IMG/VR virus record: IMGVR_UViG_3300031957_001759
Location: 1 to 25,260 of that record
Origin: a virus
Strand: one strand, 5' to 3'
DNA: 25,260 nucleotides
Shown here: positions 5,787-14,838 of the stretch, in pieces
Layout of the letters: each line of letters begins with the position of its first letter
How positions within the stretch are numbered: the first letter of the stretch is position 1
Notes under the pieces: model-generated
Told to the model about the DNA's origin: nothing
Database searches by the model: none
The model's input: the letters and a program-made list of their open reading frames with translations, nothing else
Position numbers and translations under genes: made by a program

Positions 5787-8303
5787 TTAACTGAAGCTTG
5801 TGGAGTTTGTACCAGACAACACTTTGAAGGTGATGCTCACTTCAGTGTAGATTGGCTTGGATCGATCAGAATCAATGTCCCATGGATATTCTGAATCCCA
5901 GTTATAGGTCAGATCAGTAATTATACAGCTTAATCCTTTGTAAAGTCTACCTATTGTCAAACTGACAGAGCCACCGCCACGAGATGATCCATATAATTGT
6001 CTAAGTCTGCTCCATTGTTCATTATAATGTTTTTTGTTGAAGGATGGTACTATGAAGGTCAGCCCTATGGTACGCTCATAGGAAGTGAACTGATATCGAG
6101 GATTCAGAGTCCCAATGTCCTGTGATGTGTCAAAGTTCGGACTGGATTGATCAGATAGGTCTGTTATGTAGGCATAAAAGCGTTGTCCAGCAATGACCAT
6201 TTTAATGAGATCCGTTCTTTCAGCTGAAGTGTCTTTATCACCTTGTGGTTGATAATGCACATATCTTTTGGAAGTTTTGTCGAATAATACTTCTTCTGAG
6301 GAGTTTAAAATTTTTGTTACAGCATCATTTACATCTGTAATTGCATTCACCTTTCTGAAGTCTATCGGAACACCAGTTTTTCTGTTCTTTGCCATTGCTC
6401 TGATGCGGTTGTAATCTGAACTCTGCAGTGTATTGACAGTGCTGATGACTTCACCAGTCTCTGCATCAACTTTGATCTCAGTGTCTTTGACAGCATTTCC
6501 TCCTCCATACTGTGTTTCATTCGCTGCTCCTAACGGATTCAGTACATTGTTATCACTATGATTTAACCAGAGTTCATTGTTGGAAACTATGTTGAACAGA
6601 GAATCATGATAAATGCGTCTGGCCTGCAGATCAGGTATACCAAAAGTATCACTTGATCTTTCTTCGTCTGGTCTCAGACTTAGAAAGTTATTTTTATCTT
6701 TCACAGCTATCAGCAGTCTATTGAATCCATCATCAACATCTCTTCTCCCGTCAACACTTCCAATGTATCCAAAACCTCTGGACGATGGATTCTTTGCTAT
6801 GATGTCATTGTAACTCTGATTTCCCAGATATCGCAATGGAACAGTTGCTCCTTGTGTTATGTTGTTACCAGAGAAGAAGAACTGGTTGGTCTGATCTCCT
6901 CTGCTAATTCTGGTCACGCCAATGCCTAACACGCTCTTTGGGCCTGCACGTCCAGTCAATATTGAGCTGGCTTGACCTTTTGGAAAATAACTTAGACCTA
7001 ACACAGCACCTGTGTTTCCAGTACCCTCTATACTGTTAACAACGTTTGTAGCACTTCCATCTAAGGCCTCAAAATCTGTATCTCCTACACCGCCGACACC
7101 TCCTAAGTTTGATGATACATTTTCAACTGTGACAATTGCCTGGCTTCCAGCTCCTTTGACAAGCCCATACTCTCCTCCTAACTGTACAAGTCTATTGAAT
7201 CGTGTGCGTTCTGCAGGGTCAAAGGCTCCTCTGTCCTGATGTATCTGTTCATATTTGCCTCTGGTAACGATAGGAGGTAAATGTCTGTCAAATCTAATGC
7301 CAAGACCAGAACTAACTGCATTCACTATCGCTGAAGTTGGATCATATAGCTGAGTTAGTCTCAATCCCTTTGCTCTTCCTAAAATGTTCTCCACATTTGG
7401 ATTCATGAACTGAAGTCCAAACTGTTTGGTCAGGAAGGCAAGACCTTTTGGTGATATTGCATATTTGCCTAATCGTACAGCATCAAACACTGCTCTGGTT
7501 GCAAATGTTAATGGTCCTCCTCTTGGTATGTCCAATAGACCTGATATCTGACCACCTATGGTGTTGTCAAGTCCCCATCGTTGTGGATCAGAATTGTCAT
7601 CTCTCTGAATACCTCTGAGTATGAATGGCTGTCTGGTGACACCAAATGTGAATGGATTATGAGCCTCATCTCTGACCTTGTACTTGTTGTACATGTCATC
7701 TATCGGAGAATTGGCAGTGTATGTGTCTGCCAGACCACTGTTGCTCTGAGCATTATATATGTTGCCATATCGATTCTGATCAAAGAATCCTGTCCTCAAG
7801 ATGTCAAAACTATGAATTTGCCCAGCCGGGCCAATAGGAAACTTGCTGCCATCACCTAGCTGTGCTCTGCGTTTTGCAATGCCTCTGTTTGAAAATGTCA
7901 CATTGTCGACCAGGAATTCATCTTTGGCAGTTCTGGTGAAAGATATGCTGCTTGCACCATCACGTTCAAAACCACGAGCTGTTATGCTTGGTATGTTGTC
8001 TACATTGTTCTGATATCTGGTTGTGAAGTTTCCGACACCTCCTCTGACAAATGTGTCTCTCGCAGGATTGCCTTGAGAGTCCAATGGTCGCAGATTAGTG
8101 GTCATGTTACCAAGGTTCCTGACACCTGTATGCTGATATTGAAATGCGCCTGGCACATTACCTTGCACACCAACGAAATCTGAAGCTCCCTGTTCCTGTT
8201 TTCTTGCCACAAAACCTTTGGCATCAGTGTTAGTAATGTAATCCACTGCAGGCGGTTGATTGCCATACCAGGAATACAAGGATTGATAGGTCATTAATGG
8301 CAT
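5787..8303 (-). CDS. Large baseplate/tail structural protein (838 aa)
   Basis: The N-terminal 600 residues are low in recognisable motifs and rich in Gly, Asn and Arg. The last 150 residues look like a baseplate-type module: AGQRFYAYITDLSDQSSPNF, then YERTIGLTFIVPSF, WSRLRQLYGSS, and LTYNWDSEYPWDI followed by YTEVSITFKVL. This series (an ITDL strand, a RTIGLTF strand, a helix, then a WD..YP..I segment) recurs at the end of baseplate proteins of marine myoviruses. It follows the tape-measure stop by three bases with no Shine-Dalgarno or ATATTTAT element, so it is probably translated from the tape-measure transcript. No T4 gene number is assigned with confidence; a tube-initiator or wedge role is possible. 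Confidence 0.8.
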   Translation of the reverse strand: MPLMTYQSLYSWYGNQPPAVDYITNTDAKGFVARKQEQGASDFVGVQGNVPGAFQYQHTGVRNLGNMTTNLRPLDSQGNPARDTFVRGGVGNFTTRYQNNVDNIPSITARGFERDGASSISFTRTAKDEFLVDNVTFSNRGIAKRRAQLGDGSKFPIGPAGQIHSFDILRTGFFDQNRYGNIYNAQSNSGLADTYTANSPIDDMYNKYKVRDEAHNPFTFGVTRQPFILRGIQRDDNSDPQRWGLDNTIGGQISGLLDIPRGGPLTFATRAVFDAVRLGKYAISPKGLAFLTKQFGLQFMNPNVENILGRAKGLRLTQLYDPTSAIVNAVSSGLGIRFDRHLPPIVTRGKYEQIHQDRGAFDPAERTRFNRLVQLGGEYGLVKGAGSQAIVTVENVSSNLGGVGGVGDTDFEALDGSATNVVNSIEGTGNTGAVLGLSYFPKGQASSILTGRAGPKSVLGIGVTRISRGDQTNQFFFSGNNITQGATVPLRYLGNQSYNDIIAKNPSSRGFGYIGSVDGRRDVDDGFNRLLIAVKDKNNFLSLRPDEERSSDTFGIPDLQARRIYHDSLFNIVSNNELWLNHSDNNVLNPLGAANETQYGGGNAVKDTEIKVDAETGEVISTVNTLQSSDYNRIRAMAKNRKTGVPIDFRKVNAITDVNDAVTKILNSSEEVLFDKTSKRYVHYQPQGDKDTSAERTDLIKMVIAGQRFYAYITDLSDQSSPNFDTSQDIGTLNPRYQFTSYERTIGLTFIVPSFNKKHYNEQWSRLRQLYGSSRGGGSVSLTIGRLYKGLSCIITDLTYNWDSEYPWDIDSDRSKPIYTEVSITFKVLSGTNSTSFS

Positions 8304-10697: not shown

Positions 10698-10940
10698 TTA
10701 TTTACATTTAGGATGATCAGGATTTCTTTTGCACAATGATTTTATAATGTCATTGAGTCTTTCATGATAATTTTCCATATCTGCAAGTGCTGCCTGCAGC
10801 TTAGGATCATCCTTTGCAATATCATAAGCCTTTTTGTATTGCCTTTTAACTTTTCCTTTGATGAAGAGTTTTGCTATTCTTGACAGCAATCCTTCATTCA
10901 AGGTAATGTTTTCCTGCATTTGTTTTTCTAACTTATTCAT
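10698..10940 (-). CDS. Small basic helical protein (80 aa)
   Basis: No family is recognised. The product is helical and basic in its middle (KLFIKGKVKRQYKKAYDIAK), then has an acidic-basic helix and ends with CKRNPDHPKCK, containing two Cys. It lies between the gp51 frame and the tape measure, only three bases from the latter, so a tail-assembly role (for example a tape-measure partner) is plausible from position alone. An ATATTTAT element is 13 bases before its ATG, which suggests it is the first gene of a group that includes the tape measure and the 838-aa protein. Confidence 0.75.
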   Translation of the reverse strand: MNKLEKQMQENITLNEGLLSRIAKLFIKGKVKRQYKKAYDIAKDDPKLQAALADMENYHERLNDIIKSLCKRNPDHPKCK

Positions 10941-10975: not shown

Positions 10976-11251
10976 TTAACGTTTTCTTGGCCTGTTGTTA
11001 GTTTTCAACTTTCTCATCTGTTTATCATGTTCTTCCTGTTGTTTTTTGAAGTAACTTGATAGTTTCTTGATGTGAAACTGACGTATAAATACTGGCATGT
11101 CCATTACGTCAGAATATGTGAAAGCACCTTTGGAATGAAATATCAGATCATGAATCTGATCTTCCTTCTGTAATTTATATTTCGGTGTCAGGCCAAAAAA
11201 AGTCCAATCCAATGTTAATTGAACTTCGAAAGGTATCGCCGGACTCTCCAT
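10976..11251 (-). CDS. 51: gp51-like tail/baseplate-hub assembly protein, probably made by frameshift
   Basis: The segment YKLQKEDQIHDLIFHSKGAFTYSDVMDMPVFIRQFHIKKL resembles T4-like gp51 (baseplate hub assembly catalyst) with its conserved yHxxxafTyxdVxxMPxxxRxFxIKK pattern; the C-terminus is a charged helix. The open frame begins inside gp26 and overlaps its last 77 bases in the +1 (equivalently -2) frame. The only early ATG (11249-11251) has no Shine-Dalgarno, and conserved residues start after the T7 run, so the real product is probably a gp26-gp51 fusion. A shift after gp26 Phe284 would give 284 + 72 = 356 residues. Independent initiation at the ATG (91 aa) remains possible. Confidence 0.8.
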   Translation of the reverse strand: MESPAIPFEVQLTLDWTFFGLTPKYKLQKEDQIHDLIFHSKGAFTYSDVMDMPVFIRQFHIKKLSSYFKKQQEEHDKQMRKLKTNNRPRKR

Positions 11252-12047
11252 CCGGCACTTCTATTACTAGATCTAGATCTGGTGTTACTGATTTGATATG
11301 CTTTCGCAATGCTCTGGAATCAATGGCAAACAACTCTCTATCAACAAATTTTCTGATAGCGCCATCTGATGAATCGCCATCAATTGATGTGATAACGTAT
11401 TTCAACATGGTTGTCAAACTAGCATCTTTCTTAAGTTTTTTAATTGCTCTCTGTTCAGCGTCAATCTTCTTCTGTATACCATGTGTCAATAATGAGAATG
11501 TGACTTTACGCTTACTGGCTGGTAATTCAAATTCAAATTCATTTTTGCCATTTTCCAATTTGGACCAATCAATCTCTCGTTCGCCGATTGTAGTCAAATC
11601 CACCGTATAATCCACGTCTTCGCCCGTATATGGGCTTGTTACAGTTACAGGATAATCTTTACCATAGCCTAATACTCTCGCAGCAATCATAATGGCATTC
11701 TTGTCACAAAGCAATAGATCATTGTAATCAAACTTGGTTAATATCAGTGCCTGAAACAATTTATCTAACACAACACCATTTTTGATGTAACTCTGATTTG
11801 TCAGAATATCCTCTTCACGTGCTGTCATATATTTCATTTCGATAGTTCCAGCTTTCAGTGGATGACCATCTGGATACAATACTCCTTTCGATGGCAGTTC
11901 TACAATTTCACTCGGAACTGTTATTTTAGCAGATTCAACTGATTGCTGTTCATGTTGAGCAGTTGCTGCGGCAATCATTTCTGCGTCCGACATTGGTTTT
12001 GATGTTTTTTTCTTGTCCTGATAATTAGGATTGAGACTTTGTGACAT
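11175..12047 (-). CDS. 26: gp26-like baseplate hub / tail chaperone protein
   Basis: Residues 45-100 carry the hallmark of T4-like gp26: VELPSKGVLYPDGHPL, then GTIEMKYMTAREEDILT and a KNGVVLDKLFQALI helix. At 290 residues it is longer than the T4 protein (about 208). It ends with GLDFFWPDTEI; the FFWPD end is encoded across a run of seven T residues that could shift ribosomes into the gp51 frame. Start: ATG preceded by ACAGGAG, with an ATATTTAT element 29 bases upstream and a terminator beyond. Like lambda gpG it lies just upstream of the tape measure with a short overlapping partner. The family assignment is strong; a chaperone role is inferred. Confidence 0.88.
   Translation of the reverse strand: MSQSLNPNYQDKKKTSKPMSDAEMIAAATAQHEQQSVESAKITVPSEIVELPSKGVLYPDGHPLKAGTIEMKYMTAREEDILTNQSYIKNGVVLDKLFQALILTKFDYNDLLLCDKNAIMIAARVLGYGKDYPVTVTSPYTGEDVDYTVDLTTIGEREIDWSKLENGKNEFEFELPASKRKVTFSLLTHGIQKKIDAEQRAIKKLKKDASLTTMLKYVITSIDGDSSDGAIRKFVDRELFAIDSRALRKHIKSVTPDLDLVIEVPDGESGDTFRSSINIGLDFFWPDTEI
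11195..11201 (-). other. Candidate programmed frameshift site (T7 run) between gp26 and gp51
   Basis: The coding strand reads GAC TTT TTT TGG in the gp26 frame and ACT TTT TTT GGC in the gp51 frame. A Phe-tRNA on the second TTT can re-pair perfectly after a +1 or a -2 slip. The gp26 stop is only seven codons downstream of the run. The gp51 frame is offset +1 relative to gp26, so a simple -1 shift would not give the fusion. Confidence 0.6.
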
Positions 12048-12150: not shown

Positions 12151-12639
12151 TTAGAACTGTAAGATAGCGTAATCATATTTCAAAGTCAATTCAATTTCAA
12201 TTGGATCTTCAGCTGACCAATCAAAATCTCCAAAGGTGGCAGATGAAATGAATGCACCTTTCAATGTCCATTCTTCTACTTTGTCACCTACTGGTCCTAA
12301 GGCATTGAAAGTGATATCCTTCTTATAAAAGTCTGAATATCCATCTCTACCTGTCACTGACTCATGATGCAATCGTACCCACTCCATTACAGCCTGAGCT
12401 CCTGATGGTACTACTGGGTCATATAATGTAATGGTTACATCTTGCCATCTGGATTTTCCTTTAAGCTTTCGCTCAACATTGATGTGATCCAAAATTACCT
12501 CACCTTGATCAATTGAAGGTCTGTTAGCCGTTCTGATCAGGTATGATGGAATACCCTCAATGTACATGATGAACCTGTTAGACATTTTAGGCTCATATGC
12601 CGTATAAAATATCTCGGTGGGATCTAATAATTCTGCCAT
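12151..12639 (-). CDS. 19: Tail tube protein, gp19
   Basis: 162 residues, almost identical in length to T4 gp19 (163). It begins MAELLDPTEIFYTAYEPKMSNRF, then has the tube-monomer beta core: FIMYIEGIPSYLI, a VILDHINVERK loop, RWQDVTITLYDP, and the C-terminal IEIELTLKYDYAILQF strand. It polymerises into the inner tube that DNA passes through. A Shine-Dalgarno (AAGGA) and an ATATTTAT element 17 bases before the ATG support this start. It has its own terminator, as expected for a highly expressed virion protein, and follows the sheath gene. Confidence 0.95.
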   Translation of the reverse strand: MAELLDPTEIFYTAYEPKMSNRFIMYIEGIPSYLIRTANRPSIDQGEVILDHINVERKLKGKSRWQDVTITLYDPVVPSGAQAVMEWVRLHHESVTGRDGYSDFYKKDITFNALGPVGDKVEEWTLKGAFISSATFGDFDWSAEDPIEIELTLKYDYAILQF

Positions 12640-12678: not shown

Positions 12679-14838
12679 TTATTCTGGAAACTCCGCTCCG
12701 GTTGGTAATATGTTGAAGTCAATTATAATGAATTCCGCAGTCTTAGCAGGCTGAAGGAATATCTGACCTCTCATTTCGTTTCTGTCAATTACATCCGGAG
12801 TGTTATTTGTTTCATCCATAACAACACGGAATGCAAATAAACCTTGACGCTGTTGCACATCTTCAAAGTATGGATTTGCAATACCAAGGAATCTGTTACG
12901 AGTCGCTGCCGTATTCTGTTCAAATACTAAGAACTTGGTAGTCGATGCAATGAACTTCTTAGCTGCGATCAATAATCTTCTGACATTCACTCTGTCAAGA
13001 GCTGATGCTTTCTTCTGCAGCGTTTTCTGTCCAAATACTGTCACACCCGTATTAGGGAAAGTTGCAATTGGATTGACTGAGGCATCATATAAGTCATCTC
13101 TGTTTGCCTTAGTCAACTTACGCTCTGTCATTACAGCAACATCAATTCCTCCTCTGTTCAAACCAGCTGGTGCAAACCATGGCGCTGCAACTCTGTCATT
13201 GAACGCATATACAGATGGTATCAATGTCGATGCTGGTACCCATACATTCTTTCCAAGATCTGCATCTGGTATTTTGACCCATGGCCAATAAACAGCAGCA
13301 TAATTACTGTCTCTAGATTCTGCTTTGGCTGTAGCAGTTGATAAAGCAGATGCATACTCAACAGGATCGTATACTAAGAAGCAATCTGCTCTGTCTTCAC
13401 ACATATTGAGAGCCTCTGTGATTATCTCAGCGTGATTAGTGAAGTTATCAACTAGTCCAGGTAAAGTTATCAGATTTATATCATACTCATCTTGATTTTT
13501 CAACAATCTGATAGCATCTGTGTATGCTGTCTTTCCTTCAGTTGCTACTCCTAAATTGAATCCTTGAGTATTTGTGTTACTGATTTCATCATAGAAAGCT
13601 CTTGGATGTTTCACATTACCATCAGATCCTCCTGAGAATGAACCTGATGATGCTATTGGCAATGATCCTGATAATGAACCATCTCTGACATCGCCATTCT
13701 CATCTAAATATTTGTATGTGGTATTGGTTACTTCAACTCTAACGTATCTTGATCTATTTGGGAAAGATCCTGACAATTGTAAGAACGGATCATTCGTTCC
13801 GCTGTCTCTCATAGTGAACTTTTGGTCACCTATTGCTCTTGCAATGTAATTAGGAGTGGTTGGATCTAATGTAAGATTGTTATATTGTTCCAATATCGTT
13901 TTTCTACGATTTGTATCATCACCTCTTCTAATTAATAATGTGAATGTACCTTTGGCATTATTTACATTTGATACTTCCCATCTGAGATTATTAGCAGATC
14001 CAGATGTTAACAATCCATTTGTGCCTTCAGCACATGCACTGTTTTGATCTTCTCCGTCTGCTAATGTAAATATTCTGAATGCATTTGCTGTGCCTGCAGG
14101 AGTCGCACCTGAACCTCCACCCAAATGTCCTGAACTACCGGTAGTACCGGCTCCAAAGATAAACTGACTTAATGATCCTGTAGATACTCTGGAATCATTT
14201 CCTGCTACTCCTGTTCGTGATGATGATAATATTAAATTATTACCACTGATTGATGCTGAGAAATATGAATTTGCAAATGTATTGATCTCAGTTGCTAATC
14301 CTGATAATCCTCCTGTGAATCTATATAAATCTATTCCGGGGATGTCAGTACCTCCGCTTGAACCAGAAGTGAATAAGAATGAAAGACTTTCATTACCTTC
14401 AGCAACTAATTGTACGGTATCATTTGAACGTTGAGCAAAATTTACTCCATCAACACCGAAAATCTGAAACGATCCTGTAGAAGCTACGCCTGGAGTTGCA
14501 GCAGATCCACCTGATGATGAGACTTGAGTAGATGCTGGTCCAAAATCGCCTGCCAGAACACGTACTACTGTTAACGTATCAGCATATTTCAAATATTCCT
14601 GAACTGAATAATTTGTAAGATATTTGTATGCATCTTCTGCTGCGCCTGATCCAGATGAAAAATCTCCGCCAAATTTAGTTAAAAATTCAGAATATGATGA
14701 AACTCTGGTTGGTACTAACGCCGGCCCTTTCTGTGTAGGACCTACAACTGCTGCGCCAATGGCTTGAACAGCTGCGGGTAGAAACGACTGGTCAATTTCA
14801 TTGGTAAAAACACCGGGTGATATAATCTTTTCGGCCAT
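12679..14838 (-). CDS. 18: Tail sheath protein, gp18
   Basis: Contractile sheath subunit, 719 residues (T4 gp18 is 659). It opens with the sheath signature ISPGVFTNEIDQSFL followed by VVGPTQKGPALVPTRVSSYSEF. The C-terminal core contains VAAPWFAPAGLNRGGI and ERKLTKANRDDLYDASVNPIA, then NTGVTVFGQKTL, NVRRLLIAAKKFI, RFLGIANPYFEDVQ and a closing AEFIIIDFNILP strand. The middle (about 90-400) is a Ser/Gly-rich variable domain, likely surface exposed. An AAAGGA Shine-Dalgarno and an ATATTTAT element (27 bases upstream) precede the ATG. Gene order gp18 then gp19 is as in T4. Confidence 0.96.
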   Translation of the reverse strand: MAEKIISPGVFTNEIDQSFLPAAVQAIGAAVVGPTQKGPALVPTRVSSYSEFLTKFGGDFSSGSGAAEDAYKYLTNYSVQEYLKYADTLTVVRVLAGDFGPASTQVSSSGGSAATPGVASTGSFQIFGVDGVNFAQRSNDTVQLVAEGNESLSFLFTSGSSGGTDIPGIDLYRFTGGLSGLATEINTFANSYFSASISGNNLILSSSRTGVAGNDSRVSTGSLSQFIFGAGTTGSSGHLGGGSGATPAGTANAFRIFTLADGEDQNSACAEGTNGLLTSGSANNLRWEVSNVNNAKGTFTLLIRRGDDTNRRKTILEQYNNLTLDPTTPNYIARAIGDQKFTMRDSGTNDPFLQLSGSFPNRSRYVRVEVTNTTYKYLDENGDVRDGSLSGSLPIASSGSFSGGSDGNVKHPRAFYDEISNTNTQGFNLGVATEGKTAYTDAIRLLKNQDEYDINLITLPGLVDNFTNHAEIITEALNMCEDRADCFLVYDPVEYASALSTATAKAESRDSNYAAVYWPWVKIPDADLGKNVWVPASTLIPSVYAFNDRVAAPWFAPAGLNRGGIDVAVMTERKLTKANRDDLYDASVNPIATFPNTGVTVFGQKTLQKKASALDRVNVRRLLIAAKKFIASTTKFLVFEQNTAATRNRFLGIANPYFEDVQQRQGLFAFRVVMDETNNTPDVIDRNEMRGQIFLQPAKTAEFIIIDFNILPTGAEFPE

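Follow-up and report, generated by a model that had tools for sequence, protein, structure and literature searches.

How is a protein domain translated when its reading frame overlaps the end of an upstream gene in another register? This question is raised by a locus in a 25,260-nt stretch of viral DNA (IMG/VR record IMGVR_UViG_3300031957_001759, positions 1 to 25,260; hereafter the window), where a gene for a gp26-like protein overlaps a second open reading frame (ORF). The original prediction was that the two form a tail chaperone pair joined by programmed frameshifting, and about 200 related junctions now support it strongly. In our reading, to which sequence comparison gives a probability of roughly 0.88, this is a T4-like myophage chaperone locus in which slippage on a run of seven U residues, most likely by +1, yields a long form of the protein.

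Organization of the locus

The locus belongs to a minus-strand block of T4-type structural genes in the order Gp23 capsid, sheath, tube, gp26-like gene, overlapping ORF, 80-aa ORF, and tape measure (Table 1). The chaperone gene lies between the tail tube and sheath genes and the tape measure gene, the position required of a tail assembly chaperone. The tape measure was expected to come next after one small gene, as indeed it does; the small intervening ORF had no match in family searches of Pfam and PHROG. Elsewhere in the window, a 447-aa ORF matching the C-terminal half of family A DNA polymerase (PF00476; 1674-3017) lies inside the structural gene block, a PhoH-like ATPase gene (PF02562; 22444-23109) adjoins the Gp23 major capsid gene, and an 838-aa protein, for which comparison with Pfam and PHROG gave no match, is encoded directly after the tape measure (5787-8303).

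The gp26-like gene ends with GGA TTG GAC TTT TTT TGG CCT GAC ACC GAA ATA TAA. After the seven T residues the gp26-like frame reads W P D T E I and stops, and the GGC CTG that directly follows the run lies in the frame of the downstream domain, which is +1 (equivalently −2). TTTTTTTGGCC has a single occurrence in the window. The overlap in this register, the seven T residues inside it, and the conserved residues after the run were all borne out in the window and in its relatives, and translation of the +1 fusion gives the predicted length.

Table 1. Features of the putative tail assembly chaperone locus and neighboring genes in the window
Feature	Positions	Strand	Basis
Short form (TAC-N), gp26-like tail assembly chaperone, 290 aa	11175..12047	−	PF12322, phrog_150, AlphaFold model
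Slippery run U7 (0-frame TTT TTT and the T of TGG)	11195..11201	−	Sequence; conserved block in 175/179 distinct junctions
12-nt block TTTTTTTGGCCT	11190..11201	−	Per-base information content, 70 cluster representatives
TAC-C, C-terminal domain, 72 residues (GLTPKYKL...) and stop, predicted to be read only after the shift	10976..11194	−	
Predicted long form (TAC-NC), +1 fusion of 356 aa (357 aa if −2)	10976..12047	−	Profile match
Overlapping ORF, 91 aa	10976..11251	−	ORF call
ATG of the 91-aa ORF, probably unused	11249..11251	−	Relatives without ATG; unconstrained upstream +1 frame
Tape measure protein, 795 aa	8307..10694	−	blastp E 7e-17 to annotated immuto tape measure; position
Small 80-aa ORF between chaperone and tape measure	10698..10940	−	ORF only
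Tail tube protein	12151..12639	−	phrog_4542, E 7e-26
Tail sheath protein	12679..14838	−	phrog_23, E 9e-75

Protein identity

The N part of the fusion matches PF12322 (T4_baseplate) at 27.5 bits against a cut-off of 24.5 and also matches phrog_150. Compared directly by profile, the window clade and T4 gp26 and gp51 show no significant match, and the link to T4 runs via intermediates. These intermediates are T4-like phages (S-PM2, P-SSM2, pelagiphage Mosig, Melnitz-3, DLP_6, AS-zj, nt-1, Mendera, and OLIVR6) in which a small "gp51" follows TTTTTTC, or a sequence close to it, in the −1 register. The +1 fusions of the window clade match the −1 fusions in both halves (profile 97.5%, E 5.6e-12), with the FF of one junction aligned to the FF of the other; taken separately, the N part matches that of the −1 group at 95.3% and the C part at 85.3% (profile-profile, E 5.9e-6). 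For the C part, phrog_634 (hub assembly catalyst) is matched by only 2 of 67 members. Against the T4 proteins, the −1 fusions align with all of gp51 (96.4%, E 1.3e-9) but with gp26 only through the N part (98.9%), which makes gp51 the long and gp26 the short form in T4. The label "gp51" originally given to the downstream ORF was therefore right in part: the 91-aa ORF corresponds only to the C-terminal part of T4 gp51, which is the complete long form.

The N and C parts were folded as separate AlphaFold models, both confident (pLDDT 90 and 89, respectively), the C part being modeled as three helices. In a fold search with the N model, the first PDB match in two programs was the HK97 tail assembly chaperone 2OB9, a weak match below significance (E 1.1; Z 4.7); the C part gave weak matches only. 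Identification of the locus proteins as the short and long forms of a T4-type tail assembly chaperone is strongly supported by the sequence comparisons.

Conservation of the slip site

Eighty relatives were collected with the gp26 protein; this set is biased, because one search peptide spans the slip site. About 160 further relatives were collected via queries whose search peptides avoid the site. The slippery block is present in 175 of 179 distinct junctions, including loci from the junction-free peptide patterns, and most relatives keep the T run. Most of the 175 carry TTT TTT TGG (136 junctions); the others have TTT CTT TGG (28), TTT CTA TGG (4), CTT TTT TGG (3), TTT TTC TGG (2), or one of two singletons. 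In all 164 complete relatives the downstream frame is open, over 62-105 aa and always in the +1/−2 register, and Gly-Leu directly after the run is invariant in the A1 set. The picture is unchanged after clustering at 80% identity (70 representatives), where TTTTTTTGGCCT is the most conserved DNA within ~45 nt on each side of the site. Judged from the aligned junctions, conservation of this block is far above chance. A bias toward TTT over TTC at the site (Fisher 1e-6) carries little weight, because the background use of TTT there is already 81% and the rows are related.

The +1 clade includes Flavobacterium phage immuto, Rhodothermus phage RM378, and Bacillus phage SP-15. In RM378, a distant isolate, the site reads TCC TTT TTT TGG AAT, and a +1-frame stop stands just upstream of the run with no start codon in between. 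The SP-15-like phages (L084, L086, L087) have a +1-register extension with a less clear slip site and were left out of the counts; L088 (LR756511), also among the collected relatives, has no interpretable junction. Queries with RM378 and SP-15 against viral contigs returned no additional relatives. Some relatives (L283-L288) lie on MAG contigs labeled Winogradskyella, Flavobacteriales, Flavobacteriaceae, Sphingobacteriales, and, in one case, Woesearchaeota. These are probably phage contigs binned with their hosts, and the labels hint at Bacteroidota.

Expression of the downstream frame

The 91-aa ORF might be translated independently from its ATG at 11251, by overlapping-gene coupling or reinitiation. 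An ATG does stand 57 nt ahead of the domain in the window, and likewise in many close relatives. However, no ATG precedes the run in 97 of the 175 relatives, and 48 junctions (16 of the 70 representatives) have no ATG, GTG, or TTG in frame from the last upstream stop to the run; 23 complete frames are also without a start codon in their first 30 codons, and in the extreme case, L053, the three codons are absent from the entire downstream frame. Given such start-less relatives, recoding is the only simple route to expression of this frame. Upstream of the run the +1 frame shows no coding constraint either. Among the 70 representatives, the third bases of the gp26 codons, which are the second bases of the +1 frame, carry 0-0.4 bit at −40 to −4, and the run with the following GGCCT is near-invariant at close to 2 bits. 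Because its second bases vary almost freely there, the +1 frame is not protein-coding upstream of the run; in these alignments protein-level constraint on it begins only at the run. In the two relatives described below that have a separate downstream ORF, the T7 run is absent and the ATG of that ORF stands behind the gp26 stop, which again speaks against a start inside gp26. The start-less relatives and the free upstream variation led us to reject initiation at this ATG, which we regard as very improbable. The original prediction also cited the lack of a Shine-Dalgarno sequence at the ATG; none is present, but this is weak evidence, because many clear genes in the window lack one too. What the junctions present is a short ORF and an alternate-frame extension without a usable start, joined at a conserved slippery site, the arrangement expected of a tail assembly chaperone.

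A change of register at the T run could also precede translation. RNA polymerase might slip on the seven T residues and produce a mixed mRNA pool, and most members do have a T7 homopolymer, yet seven T residues are short for transcriptional slippage, and members with TTTCTTTGG, TTTCTATGG or TTCTTTTGG, whose longest run is four, keep the arrangement unchanged. We rejected transcriptional slippage because of these non-homopolymer variants and consider its probability minimal. Since homopolymers are error-prone, the overlap might instead reflect an indel from assembly or sequencing in what is really one continuous gene. The register is, however, identical in 175 distinct junctions, including those of the isolates immuto, Mel-JY01, and RM378, and in the non-homopolymer variants; in practice these relatives refute an indel, the chance of which is negligible.

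No conspicuous stimulator accompanies the proposed ribosomal slippage at the run. Downstream RNA structure at the sites of relatives has a mean z of −0.6 to −0.8 against −0.7 for the control stretch, and none stands out. Ahead of the slip site, mean anti-Shine-Dalgarno affinity in relatives dips between −14 and −9 and is stronger there than the mean over gp26; a conserved Gly codon falls at the same place, and the dip may have arisen by chance.

Direction of the shift

A dual-tRNA −1 slip on a canonical X XXY YYZ heptamer does not describe the site, because the −1 frame of the window is closed by a stop near the slip site and the conserved domain lies in +1. The original prediction left the choice between +1 and −2. 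At the window's own U7 run full re-pairing is indeed possible for both alike, but the slip-site variants of relatives favor +1. For each of 197 junctions we considered slips of a single P-site tRNA within at most 5 codons, with re-pairing to the same first two bases and the same amino acid. All 197 junctions have a strict +1 route, whereas 44 offer no strict −2 route and 16 no relaxed one either; at random gp26 positions a +1 route is found in 35% and a −2 route in 19%. Since every junction allows +1 while 44 lack a strict −2 route, the comparison favors +1.

In the case of −2, the Phe-tRNA would be displaced backward by two bases within the run, adding one Phe to the product. This would agree with full re-pairing in the window and in 153 of the 197 junctions, and the phage Mu chaperone provides a precedent (PMC5009743). 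Besides the junctions without a −2 route, the 13 distinct junctions with TTC TTT TGG (L263-L277, L298, L299) argue against it, as a −2 slip would place tRNA-Phe on UCU. In most of these, the stretch open to slippage is closed off by a +1-frame stop only a few codons upstream; for L263, the only re-pairing slip found is UUU to UUU at +1. A −2 shift is unlikely for the clade as a whole, and the direction could differ between sub-clades.

Proposed mechanism

What the comparisons show is the conserved recoding signature and the homology; that ribosomes shift, that they do so by +1, how often this happens, and which proteins then interact, we infer as follows. Most ribosomes would finish the gp26-like ORF at its own stop and produce the short form, TAC-N. 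A minority would slip, the Phe-tRNA on UUU re-pairing with an overlapping UUU within U7, most likely one base forward and perhaps during a pause at the Trp codon UGG. The slipped ribosomes would then continue in the +1 frame to give TAC-NC with its predicted three-helix C-terminal domain. If their roles follow those of lambda gpG/gpGT, TAC-N would coat the tape measure protein, and TAC-NC would recruit tail tube subunits.

Comparison with known systems and evolution of the shift

The window clade shares with the T4-like chaperones the protein family (gp26/PF12322/phrog_150), the logic of a short and a long form, and the location near the tape measure. T4 itself has the two forms as separate genes on opposite strands, whereas in the window they are encoded in overlapping frames. 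The likeness to lambda gpG/gpGT is one of arrangement, a short and a frameshift-extended chaperone just upstream of the tape measure; lambda, in contrast to the +1/−2 register of the window clade, shifts by −1 at a two-tRNA site and at a low level (PMC5009743). Frameshifts of −1, −2, or +1 are known for tail chaperones, and the lambda type was described in a 2016 review as widely conserved "except T4" (PMC5009743). Extension via the +1/−2 register is found in HSTV-2 and phage Mu (+1 and −2; PMC5009743), which are not presented as T4-like. The TAC genes of Vandenendeviridae and Andersonviridae also have a T-rich slip site at the end of TAC-N and an uninterrupted alternate frame, but shift by −1 at GTTTTT (PMC12846349). 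A two-gene chaperone without frameshift was described earlier for phage 0305phi8-36 (PMC2147016).

The chaperone genes of T4-like phages were identified in 2022 by Vladimirov, Gautam and Davidson (Virology 566:9-15, as cited in PMC12846349 and PMC10885494). Frameshift-extended tail chaperones as such are therefore already known, as are T4-type equivalents of G/GT; the original prediction of such an equivalent is supported by the relatives' junctions and had been published in that year. The abstract of the 2022 study reportedly states that frameshifting is conserved in several T4-like groups, with T4 using separate genes. Relative to that study as represented in the papers citing it, what appears to be new is the reversed direction of the shift, the wide range of phages in the +1 clade, and the variants that separate +1 from −2. 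The frameshifted chaperone is extended here to a large, mostly uncultured half of T4-like phages.

The sampled −1 phages (cyanophage, pelagiphage, Vibrio, and Aeromonas phages) have a Phe-Phe site in common with the window clade, the register there being −1 in these phages and +1/−2, at TTTTTTTGG, in the window clade. A tree built from 61 N parts has one branch, with support 100/99, that separates the −1 phages and the T4 genes from the +1 phages; the −1 sample is small (11 rows), and several branches are long. On this basis we lean toward a single switch of direction between −1 and +1 within one family, the Phe-Phe codon pair and the short/long output being kept. One switch of register, brought about for example by a one-base deletion or two-base insertion near the run, is the simplest reading, and it suggests that the direction of a shift can flip while function is retained. 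As part of the same moderately favored reading, the +1 mode would need only a minimal signal, namely a YUU codon with a pyrimidine after it and, in most cases, UGG as the waiting codon, with no evident RNA structure. In the +1 programmed frameshift of prfB (RF2), at CUU UGA C, P-site CUU slips to UUU before a slow codon. The immuto-type CUU UGG C resembles this site, except that a sense codon follows, and no strong Shine-Dalgarno-like stimulator is demonstrated for the window clade. The natural slip-site variants form a compact set for testing what ribosomes require for a +1 slip.

Relatives with non-overlapping genes and no T run were sought, and two, L272 and L278, both nested inside the +1 clade, were found. 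Here the T7 run is gone (TTC TTG TAT and TTC CTT TGG, respectively), and the downstream domain occupies an ORF of its own in a different register, which starts at an ATG just behind the gp26 stop and carries an extra N-terminal stretch. The loss of the run together with the separate ORF fits the expectation if the run is needed, and the two cases look like an independent escape from frameshifting, reminiscent of T4. L278 had been a candidate +1 variant and was rejected as such, its downstream domain being a separate −1-register ORF.

The public records of immuto, SP-15, and RM378 list the C-terminal domain as a very small hypothetical protein (L081 3833-3943, L084 3797-3916, and L085 3701-3877, respectively). 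Annotations of these isolate phages truncate the long form, because they begin the domain at a start codon inside the +1-register frame.
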